DNA of 64,000 nt from NCBI GenBank assembly GCA_016288215.1, contig JAEEYQ010000041.1, forward strand, positions 62,001 through 126,000, read 5' to 3'. The position numbers and the translations under genes were made by a program. This DNA is from Lentisphaeria bacterium. Lineage in GTDB: Bacteria; Verrucomicrobiota; Lentisphaeria; Oligosphaerales; Oligosphaeraceae. Below, in pieces: positions 4,551 through 64,000 of the stretch. Position 1 is the stretch's first letter. Each line of letters begins with the position of its first letter. A model generated the notes under the pieces. It was not told where the DNA came from, did no database searches, and saw only the letters and a list, made by a program, of their open reading frames with translations.

Positions 4551-6440
4551 TTATGCGTAGATGGGCCCAAGGAAGGCGCAGGCGCGATAGTCGTCGCCGC
4601 CGAAGCGGGTCCACATGGTGGGACGGAAGATCTGGTCTTCAGGGACGTTGTGCATGTCCACGGGAATGCGCAGCATGGCATTGAAGGTGATCATGTCCGC
4701 GCCGATGAGACCGAAGCTGTTGGCATCGTGATTGGGGCCGATTTTGGACATGTATTCGTAGGATGTGATGTCTCGGGGGCTCCAATAGGTCTCCGGCCAG
4801 GTGGGGTCGGTGACGCGGGAGATGTGGGCGGCCACGTTCTCCGGCAGCTTGACGGTCTCGCCTTCGACGACGGAGCAGGTCAGCAGGTCGCCCACCATGT
4901 TGTAGCGGTAGGAGGTCATGGGGATGCCGCCGGGGGTGGTGAAGTGGCTGGAGTAGCCGTCGCCGGGGAAGTAGAGCAGGTCGGCGGTCATGTAAGTTGT
5001 TGCAGCCTTGATTTTTGCGATCATTTCCTGCTGAAGTTCGGGGCTGGCGACGATCAGTTTCCAAACGTCTTGGATGCTCTTGCACTTGCAGGCCTTGGCG
5101 ATCTCATAGATGTCGACGGCGTATTCCAGTGCGCCGGCTCCGGAGTTGCGCTTGTCAATGAGGCCGCGGGGGCAGATGGACTCCACGTCCACGCCGGTGG
5201 CCTTTTTGATGGAGCTGGGGGTCCAGTTGGTGCGGATGTCCGCGAACAGCTGGGGGACGCCGCCAGTGAGCAGATTGGCGACCAGCATGCCGATGCCGTT
5301 TTTGGAGTCGTTTTCGGTTGCGCAGGGATGGGCGCCGGTGAATCCGTTCCAGTCAAAGGAGCTGTTCAGGATGGATTCGGTCACGTCAAAATTGGGATTG
5401 TAGTCCGTCCACTGACGCTGTCCCTGGGTGCCGGCCACGATGGCGTTGGTGCCTTGGGCGTATTCCACGTCGGCGACGAAGCCGTGCTTCTTCCCGTATT
5501 CCGCGTCGGCCAGCTTGGCGTTGCCGACCATTAGGTCGCGGACGATCAGCGTCATCTTGACGCATTTCTCCAGCAGCTGCTCGTCGGAGAAATGATTGCG
5601 GCGCTTTTCGGGAGTGTTCTTGCGGAAGTCATTGTCCAGCTTGAAGCTCTTCATGAAGGCCAACGCCTTCTCATATTCTTCAGGGTCGAAGAAATTCGTG
5701 TCGATGCGGCCGTTGAGGATGGACATGTCCACGGAGACCGTTCCCATGCCGAGGTAGTTCATGAAGGTGTTGCGGCGCACGTCGGAGCCGATGATGCCCA
5801 TGGCGACGCCACCGACGGAGAGGTAGTTCTTGCCGCGCATGTAAGCGACAGCGGCGGCGCAGCGGGCGAAGCGCAGCAGGCGCTCGGCGACGAAGTCGGA
5901 GAGCGGGCCGCTTTCATCCTCCAGATCAGGGGAGTAGACGCAGAAGATGGGGCGCTTCTTTTCGTCCATGGCGGCGGTGAAGGCCTTCAGCCAGACGGCG
6001 CCGGGGCGGTCAGTCTGGTTGAGGCCGTAGGCGCACTGCTGCCATTCGGTGGAGCCGATGCCCATGGCGGCGCCCATGAGCTCGTCGGAATAGGACCAGC
6101 TGCGGCCAATCCAGATGTTGGCGCTGACGCCTTGCGTGGCATAGTAGGCCTGTGCGCGGGCGGCGGTGCGGGCGCCGTAGACAATCTCCGGCGCGACGAC
6201 CACGCGGACGGGCCGTCCGTCCGGCTGTGTGACCTTGCTGGTGATCAGGTCGTAGACCTTCTCCACCATGGCCCAGGTCTTGACCACATTGTCTTCATAG
6301 GCGCCGCGGCGTCCATCGGAGACAGGAGTCAGCGCGATGGTGGGCACGGGGCCCAGAATGGTCTTGTCGGCTTCCTGGAAGGAGCGGACGGGATTGGCGA
6401 GTTTCTCAAAATCGGGACGTTGGCAGCAGCAGCAACCCAT
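4551..6440 (-). CDS. fucI: L-fucose isomerase
   Basis: 629 aa; catalyses L-fucose to L-fuculose (also D-arabinose to D-ribulose) in the cytoplasm. The stretch at residues 338-410 closely follows FucI: GTQGQRQWTDYNPNFD, NSSFDWNG, ATENDSKNG and FADIRTNW. E376 and D401 match the manganese-binding Glu and Asp of the E. coli enzyme (E337, D361). It is about 40 residues longer than the E. coli protein. Unusually, the N-terminus is MGCCCCQRPDFE, four consecutive cysteines. AGGAG about 8 bases before ATG 6440 supports this start. It follows the rhamnose isomerase gene by 130 bases, probably in one operon; no fuculokinase or aldolase gene is present nearby, so the downstream steps must be encoded elsewhere. 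Confidence 0.93.
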   Translation of the reverse strand: MGCCCCQRPDFEKLANPVRSFQEADKTILGPVPTIALTPVSDGRRGAYEDNVVKTWAMVEKVYDLITSKVTQPDGRPVRVVVAPEIVYGARTAARAQAYYATQGVSANIWIGRSWSYSDELMGAAMGIGSTEWQQCAYGLNQTDRPGAVWLKAFTAAMDEKKRPIFCVYSPDLEDESGPLSDFVAERLLRFARCAAAVAYMRGKNYLSVGGVAMGIIGSDVRRNTFMNYLGMGTVSVDMSILNGRIDTNFFDPEEYEKALAFMKSFKLDNDFRKNTPEKRRNHFSDEQLLEKCVKMTLIVRDLMVGNAKLADAEYGKKHGFVADVEYAQGTNAIVAGTQGQRQWTDYNPNFDVTESILNSSFDWNGFTGAHPCATENDSKNGIGMLVANLLTGGVPQLFADIRTNWTPSSIKKATGVDVESICPRGLIDKRNSGAGALEYAVDIYEIAKACKCKSIQDVWKLIVASPELQQEMIAKIKAATTYMTADLLYFPGDGYSSHFTTPGGIPMTSYRYNMVGDLLTCSVVEGETVKLPENVAAHISRVTDPTWPETYWSPRDITSYEYMSKIGPNHDANSFGLIGADMITFNAMLRIPVDMHNVPEDQIFRPTMWTRFGGDDYRACAFLGPIYA

Positions 6441-6490
6441 GATAAATCTCCTGTAATCAAATGGTTATGATTTTATTGTTGGAAATGTGG

Positions 6491-6549
6491 CCGACGGATG
6501 CGGTTTTGGGGTTCCGTCGGGCTTGCGGCGTCGCCAAACGGGACGCCGC
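6491..6549 (-). other. Two tandem hairpins between rhaA and fucI
   Basis: GCGGCGTC/GACGCCGC (6525-6532 with 6542-6549) and CCGACGG/CCGTCGG (6491-6497 with 6514-6520) sit just after the rhaA stop. Neither is followed by a T tract. They probably set relative mRNA levels of the two isomerases. Confidence 0.55.
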
Positions 6550-6570
6550 ATGGCGGGGGAAACCGGTTGG

Positions 6571-7827
6571 TCAGGCGCGCTCCGCGAGGATCTTCTTCTC
6601 GTAGGCGCGGATCGGGGTGAGGATGTCGTAGTCGGGCAGGACGGAGCGGGACTCGCAGTAGTAGTTCCACACGGCGTTCCAAGGCAGGGTCTTGGCGGCT
6701 TCCTGGAGGGCCAGGCGGGTGGTGAAGTCGCCGGCGGCTTCGCTGGCGAAGGTGCGGGTCTTGGGGAGCAAGAGGCCGCAGAGCAAGGACTTCTGCATAT
6801 TGCGGGCGCCGATTACCCACGCCGCGATGCGGTTGATGGTCGCGTCAAAGTAGTCCAGACAGAGGAAAACGTCCTTGAAGAGGTTATGGACGGCGATTTC
6901 CTGCCCCAACGCGCTCAGGTCGTCGTTCAGGACGATGACATGATCGCTGTCCCAACGGACGCCGCGGCTGACGTGAAGCAGAATCTGCAGCCCGTTGCAG
7001 ACAATGCTGGAAAGCTTGTCCGGAATGGATTCGGTGGGGTGGTAATGGCCCATGTCCAGACAGAGCATCAGGTTCCGCTTTGCCGCGTAGGTGGCGTAGA
7101 AGTCATAGGAGCCGATGGTGCAGCTTTCGACGCCGATGCCGAAGAGCTTGGCCTCCACGGCGTCCAGCAGCTCGGTTTTGGGGAACGCTTCGGCGAAGCA
7201 TTCGTCAAGGGAATCGCGCAGGCGAATGCGGGGGCTCATGCGGTCAGCAGGCGTGTCTTTGAAGCCGTCTGGCATCCAGAAGTTGCAGACGCAGGGGGTG
7301 CCCAGTTCGCGTCCGAACTGGGCGCCGATGCGGCGGATGGCCTTGCCGTGGTTGATCCAGAACTTGCGGATTTCGGGGTCGGGATGGGAGAGGGACAGGC
7401 CGTAGTCCAGTTTTGGGTGGGAATAGAAGCAGGGGGCGATGTCCATGCCGTATTTGTGTTCCTTCGCCCACGCGAGCCAGCCCGCGAAGTTCTCCATGGT
7501 GAAGGAGTCCCGGTCCTGGCCAGGCAGCATGACGTCCACTTCATGGCCCTGCAGGCAGACGCGGTGGGGGCCTGGAATCAGGGTCATGCCCAAATCCAGA
7601 TCGCTGCGCAGCTCCTCCGACGTGCGGGCCACTCCGGGATAGTTGCCCGTGACCTGGCAGCCGCCGGTCAGAGTCTTCTGCTTATTCTCGAAGCCGACCA
7701 CATCATCGCCCTGCCATGCGTGAATGGAGATGGGGGTGCTGTCCAGAGTCTTCAGGGCCAGTTCCACATCAACACCGTGCTCCGCATACTGTTCGCAGGC
7801 CAGAGAATACATTTTCTCCACGTTCAT
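6571..7827 (-). CDS. rhaA: L-rhamnose isomerase
   Basis: 418 aa, the normal family length; converts L-rhamnose to L-rhamnulose in the cytoplasm. Metal ligands are intact and lie at positions matching the E. coli enzyme, most with a constant offset of nine: E234 (VESCTIG), D258 (CLDMGHYHPTE), H261, H285 (LLHVSRG), D293 and D295 (RWDSDH), D325 (LCLDYFD). N-terminal SIHAWQGDDVVGFE and TGGCQVTGNYPG are also characteristic. AAAGGAG six bases before ATG 7827 fixes the start. It is first gene of the rhaA-fucI pair; a rhamnosidase-like gene at 12.3 kb could supply substrate. No rhaB, rhaD or AraC-type regulator is found in the window. Confidence 0.96.
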   Translation of the reverse strand: MNVEKMYSLACEQYAEHGVDVELALKTLDSTPISIHAWQGDDVVGFENKQKTLTGGCQVTGNYPGVARTSEELRSDLDLGMTLIPGPHRVCLQGHEVDVMLPGQDRDSFTMENFAGWLAWAKEHKYGMDIAPCFYSHPKLDYGLSLSHPDPEIRKFWINHGKAIRRIGAQFGRELGTPCVCNFWMPDGFKDTPADRMSPRIRLRDSLDECFAEAFPKTELLDAVEAKLFGIGVESCTIGSYDFYATYAAKRNLMLCLDMGHYHPTESIPDKLSSIVCNGLQILLHVSRGVRWDSDHVIVLNDDLSALGQEIAVHNLFKDVFLCLDYFDATINRIAAWVIGARNMQKSLLCGLLLPKTRTFASEAAGDFTTRLALQEAAKTLPWNAVWNYYCESRSVLPDYDILTPIRAYEKKILAERA

Positions 7828-7897
7828 TGTCCTCTCCTTTGTAAAGATGGGTTAAGGGTATCCGTCTTGGAATGTCACATGTCATGCTCTTCATAGT

Positions 7898-7926: not shown

Positions 7927-8063
7927 GTTGGAGAATGACGAAAATCGCACAATAGGGCGACGGAGCACATTCTTCCAGATGAATAAAACGCGGCACATGG
8001 CTTGCGGGACATGGAACTCGGCAAGAAGTCATGAAGGGCAAAGGGGTTTCAGATTCGATTTTG

Positions 8064-8326
8064 TTGCAATTATCGCATTATAATGAATTCAAATAATGAA
8101 AATCCATCATCTTGCCAAAAAGAGGGGAAAATGGTCAAAATTGTCTCCTAAAGGGCTAAAAATGACCCTGTTTTTTTCGAAGGAAGCCCGTAAAGGCCCC
8201 TGGAGTGCCCTCTGTCGCATTTTATGCCCAATCCTGTATATTAATACCTCTCCTTATAAAAGGCCCAAAATAGGGCCACTTTTTCGATTGAGGTCATTAT
8301 TGCGTTTTCTTTCATTATTTGAAAGA
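8064..8326. repeat. 263-bp dispersed element, copy A
   Basis: Aligns over its whole length, inverted, with 60182-60444. The outer 90 and 40 bases are moderately similar. The 127-base core (8158-8284) is strongly conserved, including GTATATTAATACCTC and GGAAGCCCG. The core begins AAAAATGACC and ends GGCCACTTTTT, which can pair with each other; an inner GCAT-TTT-ATGC hairpin is shared. Ends carry TTGCAAT-like, AT-rich inverted termini. An open frame crossing it is interrupted in the other copy, so it is probably non-coding. It lies 237 bases upstream of rhaA and 140 bases beyond the pseudopilin terminator. Candidates are a MITE-like element or a structured RNA. Confidence 0.75.
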
Positions 8327-8450: not shown

Positions 8451-8490
8451 CAAAATAAAAAAGACGCCCCGCCGGAAACGGCCGGCGGGG
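8451..8490 (-). terminator. Rho-independent terminator of the pseudopilin gene
   Basis: Minus-strand stem CCCCGCCGG/CCGGCGGGG (8467-8475 with 8482-8490), six-base loop, followed by CGTC and six T. It lies 48 bases beyond the stop at 8538. Confidence 0.85.
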
Positions 8491-8537
8491 CTAGAAAGGA
8501 AAAAACATAAAGAAACGCTCAGGGAAAATGAAAACGA

Positions 8538-9218
8538 TCAATCGCCGCTGGAGGTGGTGCCTTCCGTCCAGAGGGAGTTCTCGTCAATATCGGAATCAAT
8601 GTAATATTCGTTGTCGCTGCTCTTGATGATGTCGGACTTCATCTTGAAGCAGTCGTTGGTGGCGAACCATTCCGTGCTGTTCTTCTTGGAGCCGGTGAAG
8701 GTCTCCACATGGGTGTCCATGAAGAGGACATTGCCCACGTTTTTGTGGTTCTTATTCTTGTCGCGCACGATGCCGCGTTCGGACTTGTAGGACACGTCGT
8801 CCCAAAGGCCGCCGTAGTAGAGATAGCTGCACTTTTCGGTCTTGGTGCCGTTGGCGGTGTCCGACGCGCTGTCCAGATCATCGGAATTGTTGGCCTTGGT
8901 CATGCGGGAGCTGCGGCAGATGAGGACGGCGGTGCTGTCCAGGTACTTGTCCTCCAGCAGTCGGACGAAGCCCTTGCTGTTGTGGCCCACGTTGTCCCGT
9001 TCGGAGCCGTCCACGTCCTTGAGGGGATTGGGGTAGTTGCCGCGGTGGTCATTGGCGAACATGTTGAGGGCCAGTCCGATCTGCTTGAGCTGATTTGTGC
9101 AGTCGATCTGGTTGGCCTTCTCCTTTGCCTTTCCCAAGGCGGGCATCAGCATGGACGCAAGAACGGCGATGATGCCGATAACGACAAGCAGTTCAATTAG
9201 GGTAAAGCTTTTTTTCAT
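8538..9218 (-). CDS. Prepilin-type N-terminal methylation protein (type II secretion/pseudopilin-like, H-X9-D family)
   Basis: 226 aa. Residues 1-8 are a very short basic leader with the type IV prepilin site ([20 protein letters not shown]; methylated Phe5, Glu9 present), then one hydrophobic helix and a soluble domain. Such proteins are processed by a prepilin peptidase and assembled or anchored at the inner membrane. They are very abundant in Lentisphaerota and Planctomycetota. The conserved C-terminal signature is present as H158-X9-D168 followed by T instead of the usual G ([15 protein letters not shown]). The tail is acidic. GAGG before ATG 9218 supports the start. It is transcribed alone, with a strong terminator. 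What it secretes or binds is unknown. Confidence 0.9.
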
Positions 9219-59327: not shown

Positions 59328-59591
59328 GTGTACAATGTCATTGTGAAGAAGAGAGTCGCCAAAGCAGTGGGGAAACTGCCATTGACCGTGCAGCATCTCT
59401 TCGCCAATTTGCTTGAGGACCTGGAGGAAAGTGGCCCCGTGCAGACGACATGGCCGCATTATTCCAAGCTGTCCAAAAACACACATCATTGTCATTTGGG
59501 CTACCGCCATGTTGCATGCTGGCGGTGTGAAGAGGAATCCATTGAAGTCGAGGTGTATTATGCCGGAAGTCGTGAAGACGCCCCATATTAA
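59328..59591 (+). CDS. RelE/ParE-HigB-like toxin of a type II toxin-antitoxin pair
   Basis: 87 aa, GTG start at 59328 with GAGG seven bases upstream. The sequence MYNVIVKKRVAKAVGKLPL followed by LGYRHVACWRCEEESIEVEVYYAG fits the compact alpha/beta RelE-type fold, whose members cleave ribosome-bound mRNA. It overlaps the antitoxin gene by 32 bases, toxin first, the order seen in HigBA pairs. The RH and Tyr residues near the C-terminus may be catalytic. No phage or plasmid genes are nearby; the 263-bp element follows about 200 bases after the antitoxin. Confidence 0.78.
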   Translation: MYNVIVKKRVAKAVGKLPLTVQHLFANLLEDLEESGPVQTTWPHYSKLSKNTHHCHLGYRHVACWRCEEESIEVEVYYAGSREDAPY

Positions 59592-59967
59592 TCTTTCCTA
59601 TGAACATTGCGATTCTGCTGTCATCGGCGAACTGGTCGATATTCTCCATTCAAAGTTCAAGAGAGTCATCATCACCGTCATCAATTCTTGTCAGGAGGAA
59701 GCACTGGACAATGACGAGGAACGGGTCAACGTCTTTGAGACCGATTGGTGGAAGTCGTTGAGACCAGGCGACTTATTGGCCGGTTGCCGGCTGAAGCACC
59801 AACTGACGCAAAAACAGCTGGCGGAGATGACGGGCATGAGCTATGCCACCATCAGCGCGTATGAGACGGGAAAGCGGCCGCTCTCTCAGCGTGCCGCAAT
59901 CAAGCTGGCAAACGCAATGAATGAAAAGCCAGAACGGTTTTTCAGGCACATCGCAGAGGAGAAATGA
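59560..59967 (+). CDS. XRE-family HTH antitoxin
   Basis: 135 aa from ATG 59560, with GAGG six bases upstream. Residues 1-65 are an uncharacterised N-terminal part. The C-terminal half is a Cro/C1-type helix-turn-helix (GCRLKHQLTQKQLAEMTGMS, YATISAYETGKRPLSQRAAI), which would bind the TA promoter and neutralise the toxin. The HTH is at the C-terminus, which is compatible with the HigA/MqsA-like family. Coupled to the toxin gene by a 32-base overlap. Confidence 0.82.
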   Translation: MPEVVKTPHINLSYEHCDSAVIGELVDILHSKFKRVIITVINSCQEEALDNDEERVNVFETDWWKSLRPGDLLAGCRLKHQLTQKQLAEMTGMSYATISAYETGKRPLSQRAAIKLANAMNEKPERFFRHIAEEK

Positions 59968-60151: not shown

Positions 60152-60181
60152 ATAAAAAGCAGTTCCTTGTCTGTCGCTCAT

Positions 60182-60444
60182 TTGCAATATAATGCAATAA
60201 AATGCAATAAAGGCCAAAGCTCAAAAAGTGGCCATTTTAGGGCATATAGGGCAGGGGAGGTATTAATATACAGGGTCGGGCATAGAATGCCATAGAGGGC
60301 CCTCTAGGGGCATTGGCGGGCTTCCTCCCCAAAAAGAAAGGCCATTTTTCACTCCTCCGGACCCGATTTTCGCCAACTTTTCCGCTTGTCGCATCAAGCA
60401 GACGGCATTCATTAAATGTATTCATAAAGGTGCGTTAAATGCAA
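60182..60444. repeat. 263-bp dispersed element, copy B (inverted relative to copy A)
   Basis: Aligns with the minus strand of 8064-8326 end to end. The core 60223-60349 has the same 127-base length as copy A. On the minus strand the core starts AAAAATGGCC and ends GGCCACTTTTT; these pair fully except for one bulged C, a better stem than copy A. An inner GGCAT-TCT-ATGCC hairpin and the palindrome AGAGGGCCCTCT also occur. Relative to the downstream gene (glnN) it has the same orientation as copy A has to rhaA. Confidence 0.75.
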
Positions 60445-60500
60445 GCCTTTTGGGCCATGATTTTGACAGGCCTTCCGGCCATGACTCCAAATACAAAACC

Positions 60501-60740: not shown

Positions 60741-60886
60741 GCTTATGCCCGTGATGGGCTGTTGGCCTTGCTGTGGAATCATCCATGTCATCCATGCAAA
60801 TTCCAACTTGGCATAGTAATTGCTAATATAGTGGCATACTGGCCAGGGAGCCGGAACAAGCCATGAATTTTCAGGAGATATGACCC

Positions 60887-62980
<2,094 letters not shown>

Positions 62981-62998
62981 TTCCGCAGGAGGGCGTTC

Positions 62999-64000
62999 AT
63001 GTCCGACAGCATCAAGCATGAATGTGGGCTCGCGCTGCTCCGGCTGCGCAAGCCCCTTGCCTATTATGAGGACAAATACGGTACGCCGGCCTATGGCTTC
63101 GCCCGAACCAGCCTTCTCATGGAGAAGCAGCACAACCGGGGGCAGGACGGCGCCGGCATGGCCTGCGTGGGACTTGACGTGCCGCCGGGGCGGCCCTTCT
63201 ACAGCATGGAGAAGAGCTGCTCCGCCATGCCGCTGGCGGATCTGCTGGAGCGCATCTCGAACCAACTCAATGCATATTCTGTAAATCATTCTGCTAGAAC
63301 AACTTGCACATGCGATTTGGAACGCCCCTTCTGTGGAGAGGTCTATCTGGGCCATGTGCGCTACGGCACCTTTGGCACCCGCAGCCTGGACGCCTGCCAT
63401 CCCATGGTCTGCGACAGCCCACGGCGGGACCACACATTGCTGGCCGCCGGCAACTTCAATCTGACCAACACGGCGGACGTCTTCAACACGTTGGTGAAGC
63501 TTGGCTATCATCCGCGGGGCCTGCAGGACTGCCGCATCCTGCTCATCTGCCTGGCTCATTACCTCGGCGAATGCCACGGCGACCTTCTAGAGGCGGTCCG
63601 TCAGTCCGCCAGTCAATGGGACGGCGGCTTTGTCATCGGAGGAGTTGTCGGCAACGGCGACGCCTTTGCCTTCCGAGACGCCCACGGCATCCGTCCCGCC
63701 TTCTATTACATGGATGACGAGGTGGTCGCGCTGGCCTCCGAGCGGGTGGCGCTGCAGACCGCCTTCGACCTTTCCAGCCAAGAGGTTACGGAGCTTCCTG
63801 GCGGCCATCTGCTGCAGATTCCCGCCCATGGGGAGGTGACCGTGCGGCCCTGCCTTCCTCCTGCGCCGCCCCGCCATTGCGTCTTCGAGCGCATCTATTT
63901 CTCCAGAGGCAACGACGCGGACATTCAGCAGGAGCGCCGCGCCCTTGGACGGGCGGTGGTGCCGCAGGTGCTCAAGGCCATTGACGACGACATCGAACAC
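62999..64000 (+). CDS. Amidophosphoribosyltransferase-like protein (PurF family), cut by window end
   Basis: 334 codons are visible; the gene runs off the right edge. ATG 62999 has GGAGGG five bases upstream. A short propeptide (MSDSIKHE) precedes Cys9, the N-terminal nucleophile of class II glutamine amidotransferases (ECGLALLRLR). Other signatures are MEKQHNRGQDGAGMA, VYLGHVRYGTFGTRS and GNFNLTN in the ammonia-channel domain, and FRDAHGIRPAFYYMDDEVVA, which is typical of PurF. The phosphoribosyltransferase domain with its PRPP loop lies beyond the window, so activity cannot be confirmed. Linked to glnN, which would supply glutamine. Confidence 0.88.
   Translation, partial: MSDSIKHECGLALLRLRKPLAYYEDKYGTPAYGFARTSLLMEKQHNRGQDGAGMACVGLDVPPGRPFYSMEKSCSAMPLADLLERISNQLNAYSVNHSARTTCTCDLERPFCGEVYLGHVRYGTFGTRSLDACHPMVCDSPRRDHTLLAAGNFNLTNTADVFNTLVKLGYHPRGLQDCRILLICLAHYLGECHGDLLEAVRQSASQWDGGFVIGGVVGNGDAFAFRDAHGIRPAFYYMDDEVVALASERVALQTAFDLSSQEVTELPGGHLLQIPAHGEVTVRPCLPPAPPRHCVFERIYFSRGNDADIQQERRALGRAVVPQVLKAIDDDIEH

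Follow-up and report, generated by a model that had tools for sequence, protein, structure and literature searches.

A dispersed family of diverged, length-fixed intergenic DNA elements with helically phased arms in Lentisphaeria

Two related stretches of the window, the 64,000-nucleotide stretch of Lentisphaeria DNA that we analyzed, belong to a dispersed family of intergenic DNA elements that resemble REP sequences and MITEs in genomic behavior and whose copies, in the explanation that we favor with about even confidence, act as DNA. Each copy is a scaffold of fixed length and predicted intrinsic curvature. Its common part of ~190 bp surrounds the palindrome GGTATATTAATACC, from about -125 to +66, and in the genome carrying the window, arms that bear TTGCA-type end motifs lengthen it to 267 bp in type A and 282 bp in type B. 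A protein complex may wrap the DNA, with its focus at the palindrome; this is the simplest reading of a fixed length combined with curvature, a palindromic focus, and helical phasing that extends over 190-280 bp. Copies would have spread by transposition in the past and would now be kept by selection on phasing and length, and their most plausible job would be to serve gyrase or a nucleoid-associated protein as a chromosome-topology or chromosome-organizing site where genes end. In the open-access papers that we searched, no description of this family was found.

A previous sequence-only reading of this DNA had aligned bases 8064 to 8326 with the minus strand of 60182 to 60444, and this relationship was confirmed (blastn E = 2.9e-27, 71% identity over 255 bp), as was a core of exactly 127 nt in both copies, which aligns without gaps and is identical at 96 of 127 positions. 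The family boundaries place copy 1 at 8061-8326 on the plus strand and copy 2 at 60180-60447 on the minus strand. Both are type A elements: copy 1 can be aligned over its full length with 29 other type A copies (263-269 bp) and scores 181.6 bits (E 1.6e-53) against R1, a sequence-only profile built from type A copies, and copy 2, likewise included in the family alignment, scores 194.1 bits (E 2.5e-57). An invariant core palindrome, CCTGTATATTAATACCTC, occupies 8233-8250 (+) in copy 1 and, in identical form, 60257-60274 (-) in copy 2; across the genome, this sequence has 44 matches at ≤3 mismatches versus 2 for a reversed control. The long arm of copy 1 (8061-8232, +) carries phased A-tracts, a 10- to 10.5-bp periodicity of AA/TT and GC, and an outer end with TTGCAAT/TGAAT motifs. 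Its short arm (8251-8326, +) carries phased T-tracts and GC peaks about every 9.5 bp, has TTTCATTATTTGAAA as its outer end, and is conserved in the 30-copy alignment.

The proposed placement of the two copies upstream of metabolic genes (rhaA and glnN) did not hold, since both sit between convergent genes, 3' of both neighbors. A gene for a 469-aa protein with no Pfam match (6487-7896, +) ends 164 bp before copy 1, and a convergent DUF1559/N-methyl pseudopilin-like gene (8538-9218, -) lies to its right. Copy 2 is flanked on the left by a gene for an HTH protein (59413-59967, +), whose 3' end points toward the element, and on the right by a convergent gene for a 929-aa protein, again with no Pfam match (60788-63577, -). 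The pseudopilin gene has a strong intrinsic terminator (8466-8491, -), a 10-pair GC stem and then a T-run, between itself and copy 1, and copy 1 is therefore outside that transcription unit. The only sugar isomerase found in the vicinity is a fucose isomerase (4551-6440, -) that another gene separates from copy 1.

The family is far larger than the two copies first described. In the draft genome containing the window (G000; 3.7 Mb in 73 contigs), blastn returned 40 matches at E ≤ 0.001, and a search with R1 detected 42 full-length copies at 121-208 bits together with ~35 weaker matches, which a type B profile confirmed as a sister subfamily, B. In total, about 77 copies were placed in G000, mostly in intergenic positions, comprising 43 of type A (~267 bp) and 34 of type B (~282 bp). 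Type B elements have the ends TTGCATTTATTGCAA and TTGCAAAAAATGCAA and the core AGGTATATTAATACCT. In most of them, the TTGCA end motifs have fixed distances to the core, -163/-154 on one side and +103/+113 on the other. Type B ends are inverted (TTGCAWWWWWTGCAA), whereas those of type A are only loosely so. Five B-like copies (L110, L114, L124, L132, and L138) lack TTGCA ends and may represent a third subfamily. Solo TTGCAW5TGCAA sites were considered as elements and rejected, being mostly pseudopilin codons (VIAIIAI); in DUF1559-like pseudopilin genes at L173-L176, L178, and L179, TTGCAATTATTGCAA within the VIAIIAI signature mimics the type B end motif.

Outside G000, about 60 copies were present in G020, a genome of another genus in the same family that matches the horse-faeces Lentisphaeria MAG JAKSPA and that gave 64 matches to its own profile. 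Fewer matches were detected in G019 (8), G027 (6), G001 (4), G009 (2), and G010 (1), and the remaining genomes of the same taxonomic family had none. Across the class (198 genomes from 86 genera), convincing matches occurred in four genera only. We treated three weak class-level matches with E about 1e-3 as chance and dismissed a single Spirochaetes match to the G020 pattern likewise; the viral, phage, and plasmid collections that we searched yielded no match.

Members of the family have diverged strongly and yet kept their length. The 30 extended type A copies, with only occasional gaps, are constant in total length to 2-3 bp (263-269 bp) despite a mean pairwise identity of 64% and a best pair at 76%, and there are no recent duplicates among them. 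Copies are solitary rather than clustered. In the type A alignment, the interior of the element is better conserved than the ends. A 14-bp core palindrome is the only conserved hairpin. Over the phased stretch around the palindrome, consensus sequences of type A, type B, and the G020 copies are only 50-54% identical to one another and agree in S/W class at 68-74% of positions. Within each subfamily, transversions that keep the S/W class exceed those that change it (0.33-0.37 versus 0.27-0.28), and the two are equal when shuffled.

Helical phasing was evident, and curvature predicted, in each subfamily that we analyzed for them; neither entered the sequence-only reading. Type A copies showed AA/TT autocorrelation at lags of 10 and 21 and autocorrelation of GC/GG/CC steps at 10, 19-20, and 30-31, and the type B and G020 copies had the same step periodicity; the surrounding window had codon periodicity only. 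The phasing is centered on the invariant palindrome. Spectral power of the type A GC profile near the helical period reached 15.1, compared with a permutation maximum of 9.6. With ungapped sequences anchored at the palindrome, GC peaks fell at nearly the same offsets in types A and B and in G020, with small local departures (on the left at about -125, -115, -106, -96, -85, -75, -63, -54, -44, -33, -24, and -7, and on the right at about +5.5, +14, +23, +33, +44, +52, and +61). Correlations between the three GC profiles were 0.57-0.66 without a shift and became negative when the profiles were offset by half a turn. Strong curvature was predicted by a wedge model with published parameters, for which the direction was validated on A4T4, which must bend, and T4A4, which must not. 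In this model, the ratio of end-to-end distance to contour length was 0.81 for the type A long arm (-130 to -20, 30 copies) versus 0.965 for shuffled sequence and 0.86 for the type B arm versus 0.97, and the flanks of copies showed no curvature effect. Phasing and curvature of the DNA look like the main constraint on the element.

A structured non-coding RNA, one half of the original proposal, would account for a conserved length, an intergenic location, and strand asymmetry, and GGCC hairpins form locally in some copies. However, RNAalifold found no structure on either strand of the 30 type A copies and, in type B, only the pairs of the core palindrome, without compensatory change. The pairing of the core ends (AAAAATGGCC / GGCCACTTTTT) and the inner GCAT/ATGC hairpin, both described from the two window copies, were not kept across copies beyond the level of shuffled columns (for the two helices, 72.9% of cells pair versus 73.8% in shuffles), and in a covariation check on the collected copies the score of these helices was below the shuffled mean. 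Rfam gave zero matches at gathering scores over the whole window and none that was credible at E ≤ 1 at four loci. Together with the convergent location and the terminator standing between copy 1 and its neighboring gene, these results from 30 diverged copies (RNAalifold, helix pairing against shuffles, and Rfam) rule out a structured RNA, to which we give next to no credence. The accompanying statement that the element is not a protein was borne out: any one reading frame is open in at most 5 of 30 type A, 10 of 30 type B, and 4 of 20 G020 copies, and no 3-base periodicity is seen in conservation.

Type A copies were enriched between convergent genes. Among copies for which a simple ORF caller, used for neighbor orientation, called both neighbors, 14 of 28 type A copies lay between convergent genes and 2 between divergent genes, compared with 6 and 5, respectively, of 33 gaps in the window; type B was less clear (9 of 25 convergent, 5 divergent). 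Types A and B together were also spaced more evenly than expected from random placement within contigs (P about 0.004-0.013 for the 77 placed copies), with 4 intervals under 10 kb versus 10.4 expected and a median of 28.5 kb versus 18.1 kb, although this even spacing is only suggestive because the contigs are drafts.

Location 3' of genes would suit a bidirectional transcription terminator or insulator at convergent gene ends, and copy 1 does contain a GGCCCAAAATAGGGCC stem followed by a T-run. However, this stem was found neither in copy 2 nor in the consensus, a strong terminator belonging to the pseudopilin gene lies outside the element, and 190-280 bp of phasing would be left unexplained. 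We consider such a role very improbable.

The preferential position at gene ends also bears on the idea that copies are strong DNA gyrase sites, with the arms wrapped, cleavage in the palindrome (GTATATTAATAC), and positive supercoils relieved at gene ends, as for BIME-2 and the Mu SGS. This is a special case of the wrapped-DNA explanation that we favor, so that our confidences in the two overlap. The E. coli gyrase motif is symmetric over 130 bp, with phased GC arms at -63:-17 and 20:66 in a nucleosome-like pattern with a 10.75-bp period (PMC6379681); BIME-2 repeats act as gyrase sites, and some REP/BIME sequences are bound and cleaved by gyrase (PMC6379681). Around the palindrome of the elements, GC peaks are nearly symmetric at about ±24, 33.5, 44, 53, and 62, and a scan with the element GC profile ranked the known Mu cut site among the best-scoring 0.15-2.3% of positions in Mu, to within about 4 bp, although other Mu positions outscored it. 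The period within ±66 bp is, however, 9.6-9.9 bp rather than 10.75 bp, a departure opposite to that expected of a right-handed gyrase wrap. The phased region of 190-280 bp exceeds one gyrase footprint, and the enzyme is universal whereas the element is lineage restricted. Gyrase is thus a possible but doubtful partner, and a nucleoid-associated protein or a transposase complex is at least as likely because of the short period, the long phased region, and the lineage restriction.

A transposase complex is central to a different explanation, in which the element is a selfish, non-autonomous, MITE-like transposon whose phased arms and TTGCA ends form that complex, its length being needed for transposition and not by the host. 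The mobile half of the original proposal stands in part, in that copies are dispersed and occupy different sites in each genus; genes next to copies in G020 are not found again next to those in G000, one weak match or weak similarities aside. One type A copy (L026) directly adjoins the right half of a type B element, and the junction falls exactly at the B core, as if the type A copy had inserted there. Lineage restriction with unequal copy numbers (77, 64, 4, 8, 6, and 0) and the inverted type B ends, which are nearly exclusive to elements bar chance matches in pilin-coding sequence, likewise favor a MITE. The usual signs of a MITE were, however, not found: neither A nor B ends have a target-site duplication, flank similarity being the same within as between copies; G000 has no near-identical copies except in one segmental duplication; conservation of the interior over the ends and a constant length are also at odds with it; and a longer autonomous element with the same ends was not seen. 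The segmental duplication (L128, G000 C47:23461-25893) comprises a pair of almost identical type B copies that are separated by 2 kb and whose flanks, duplicated as well, surround an ATPase-like gene. We regard a purely selfish element as somewhat unlikely while taking it seriously, and the best fit is mobility in the past with long maintenance since then.

The palindrome is an insertion hotspot that IS1634-family transposons split in two genera. One type B copy in G000 is divided at its core into a left half (C33:78433-78613) and a right half (from C33:87131) by a transposon of ~8.5 kb (L170:620-9130, equivalent to G000 C33:78619-87129), which has inverted ends CCRTAACTCCCCAAAATTGGTGAATAA, a 6-bp duplication, ATTAAT, taken from the core, and one IS1634-family transposase beside cargo genes. 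Its cargo ORFs, named by eye, are GNAT-like, metallo-hydrolase, alpha/beta hydrolase, flavoprotein, TetR-like, and rubrerythrin-like; its left end carries a remnant of a transposase C terminus, and a composite origin is suggested. Another IS1634-family element has inserted at this core position in G027, where it splits a copy and duplicates ATATATAT, and the same holds for G010. The insertion is the same and near-identical in sequence in these MAGs of two different genera (L197:362-2276 in G027 and L198 in G010), suggesting recent transfer or contamination. Half-copies that end at the core or within about 20 bp of it were found three more times in G000 (C31, C19, and C23) and once in G009. At the C23 contig end (L192:1240-1416), a right half-element is joined at the core to other sequence that runs to the end of the contig and is probably another insertion sequence.

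Recurrent half-elements broken at the core could also reflect a complex recombination site of the attP or cer kind, with the palindrome as crossover and the arms binding accessory proteins, and the anatomy of the element resembles that of lambda attP, which has a long arm, a core, and a short arm. The two resolved core breaks are, however, IS1634 insertions with duplicated target bases and not recombinase products, and the genome has only two tyrosine recombinases (PF00589), as expected for XerC and XerD alone. We rejected half-elements as attL/attR, with the C33 pair explained by the transposon insertion instead, and find a recombination site highly unlikely. One type A copy (L016, G000 C59:6143-6991) lies ~80 bp past one of these two recombinase genes.

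For the favored explanation of a protein-wrapped DNA element, an essential host function is made less likely by the presence in 4 of 86 genera, with very unequal numbers, and the phasing might be there for a transposition complex and not for the chromosome. More speculatively, and with little weight from us, copies might be DNA-wrapping sites for an undescribed Lentisphaeria nucleoid or topology protein, mobile-born repeats domesticated as evenly spaced chromosomal anchors and forming a bacterial equivalent of nucleosome-positioning sequences whose period is short and of the left-handed type. Bacterial repeats are usually recognized by hairpins or terminal repeats; the conserved property here is apparently DNA shape and length over 190-280 bp, between genera with half-identical consensuses. 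If a protein wraps the element, the family would offer dozens of natural variants from which to read a bacterial DNA-wrapping code and would represent a rare route to chromosome organization in a poorly cultured phylum. The family also shows insertion sequences aiming at such sites.

Among known systems, the elements resemble the REP/BIME sequences of enterobacteria and pseudomonads, which likewise occupy intergenic positions at the ends of genes and number from tens to hundreds. Specific insertion sequences are known to target REPs (PMC1525189), and the element core, hit by particular insertion sequences, provides a close parallel. In contrast to REPs, which are short hairpin palindromes associated with TnpAREP and occur singly or in alternating clusters, the unit here is 267-282 bp, solitary, without hairpin architecture, and helically phased throughout. 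As in the phage Mu strong gyrase site and the E. coli gyrase motif, phased GC/AT variation forms two arms of bendable DNA around a center, but the elements span about 190-280 bp, have a period of 9.6-9.9 bp near the center, and occur as many homologous copies that share a conserved palindrome. MITEs such as Correia elements are short, non-coding, and dispersed, with inverted end motifs, all of which the elements share; unlike those MITEs, they lack target duplications and recent copies and are conserved more in the interior than at the ends. Lambda attP and the plasmid cer/psi sites are wrapped DNA of ~240-280 bp with an off-center core and unequal arms, and the elements match them in length, core position, and arms but exist in many chromosomal copies with no matching recombinase found. 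The elements form a real repeat family at the DNA level, REP/MITE-like in its ecology and unusual in that shape and length seem to be what is conserved.
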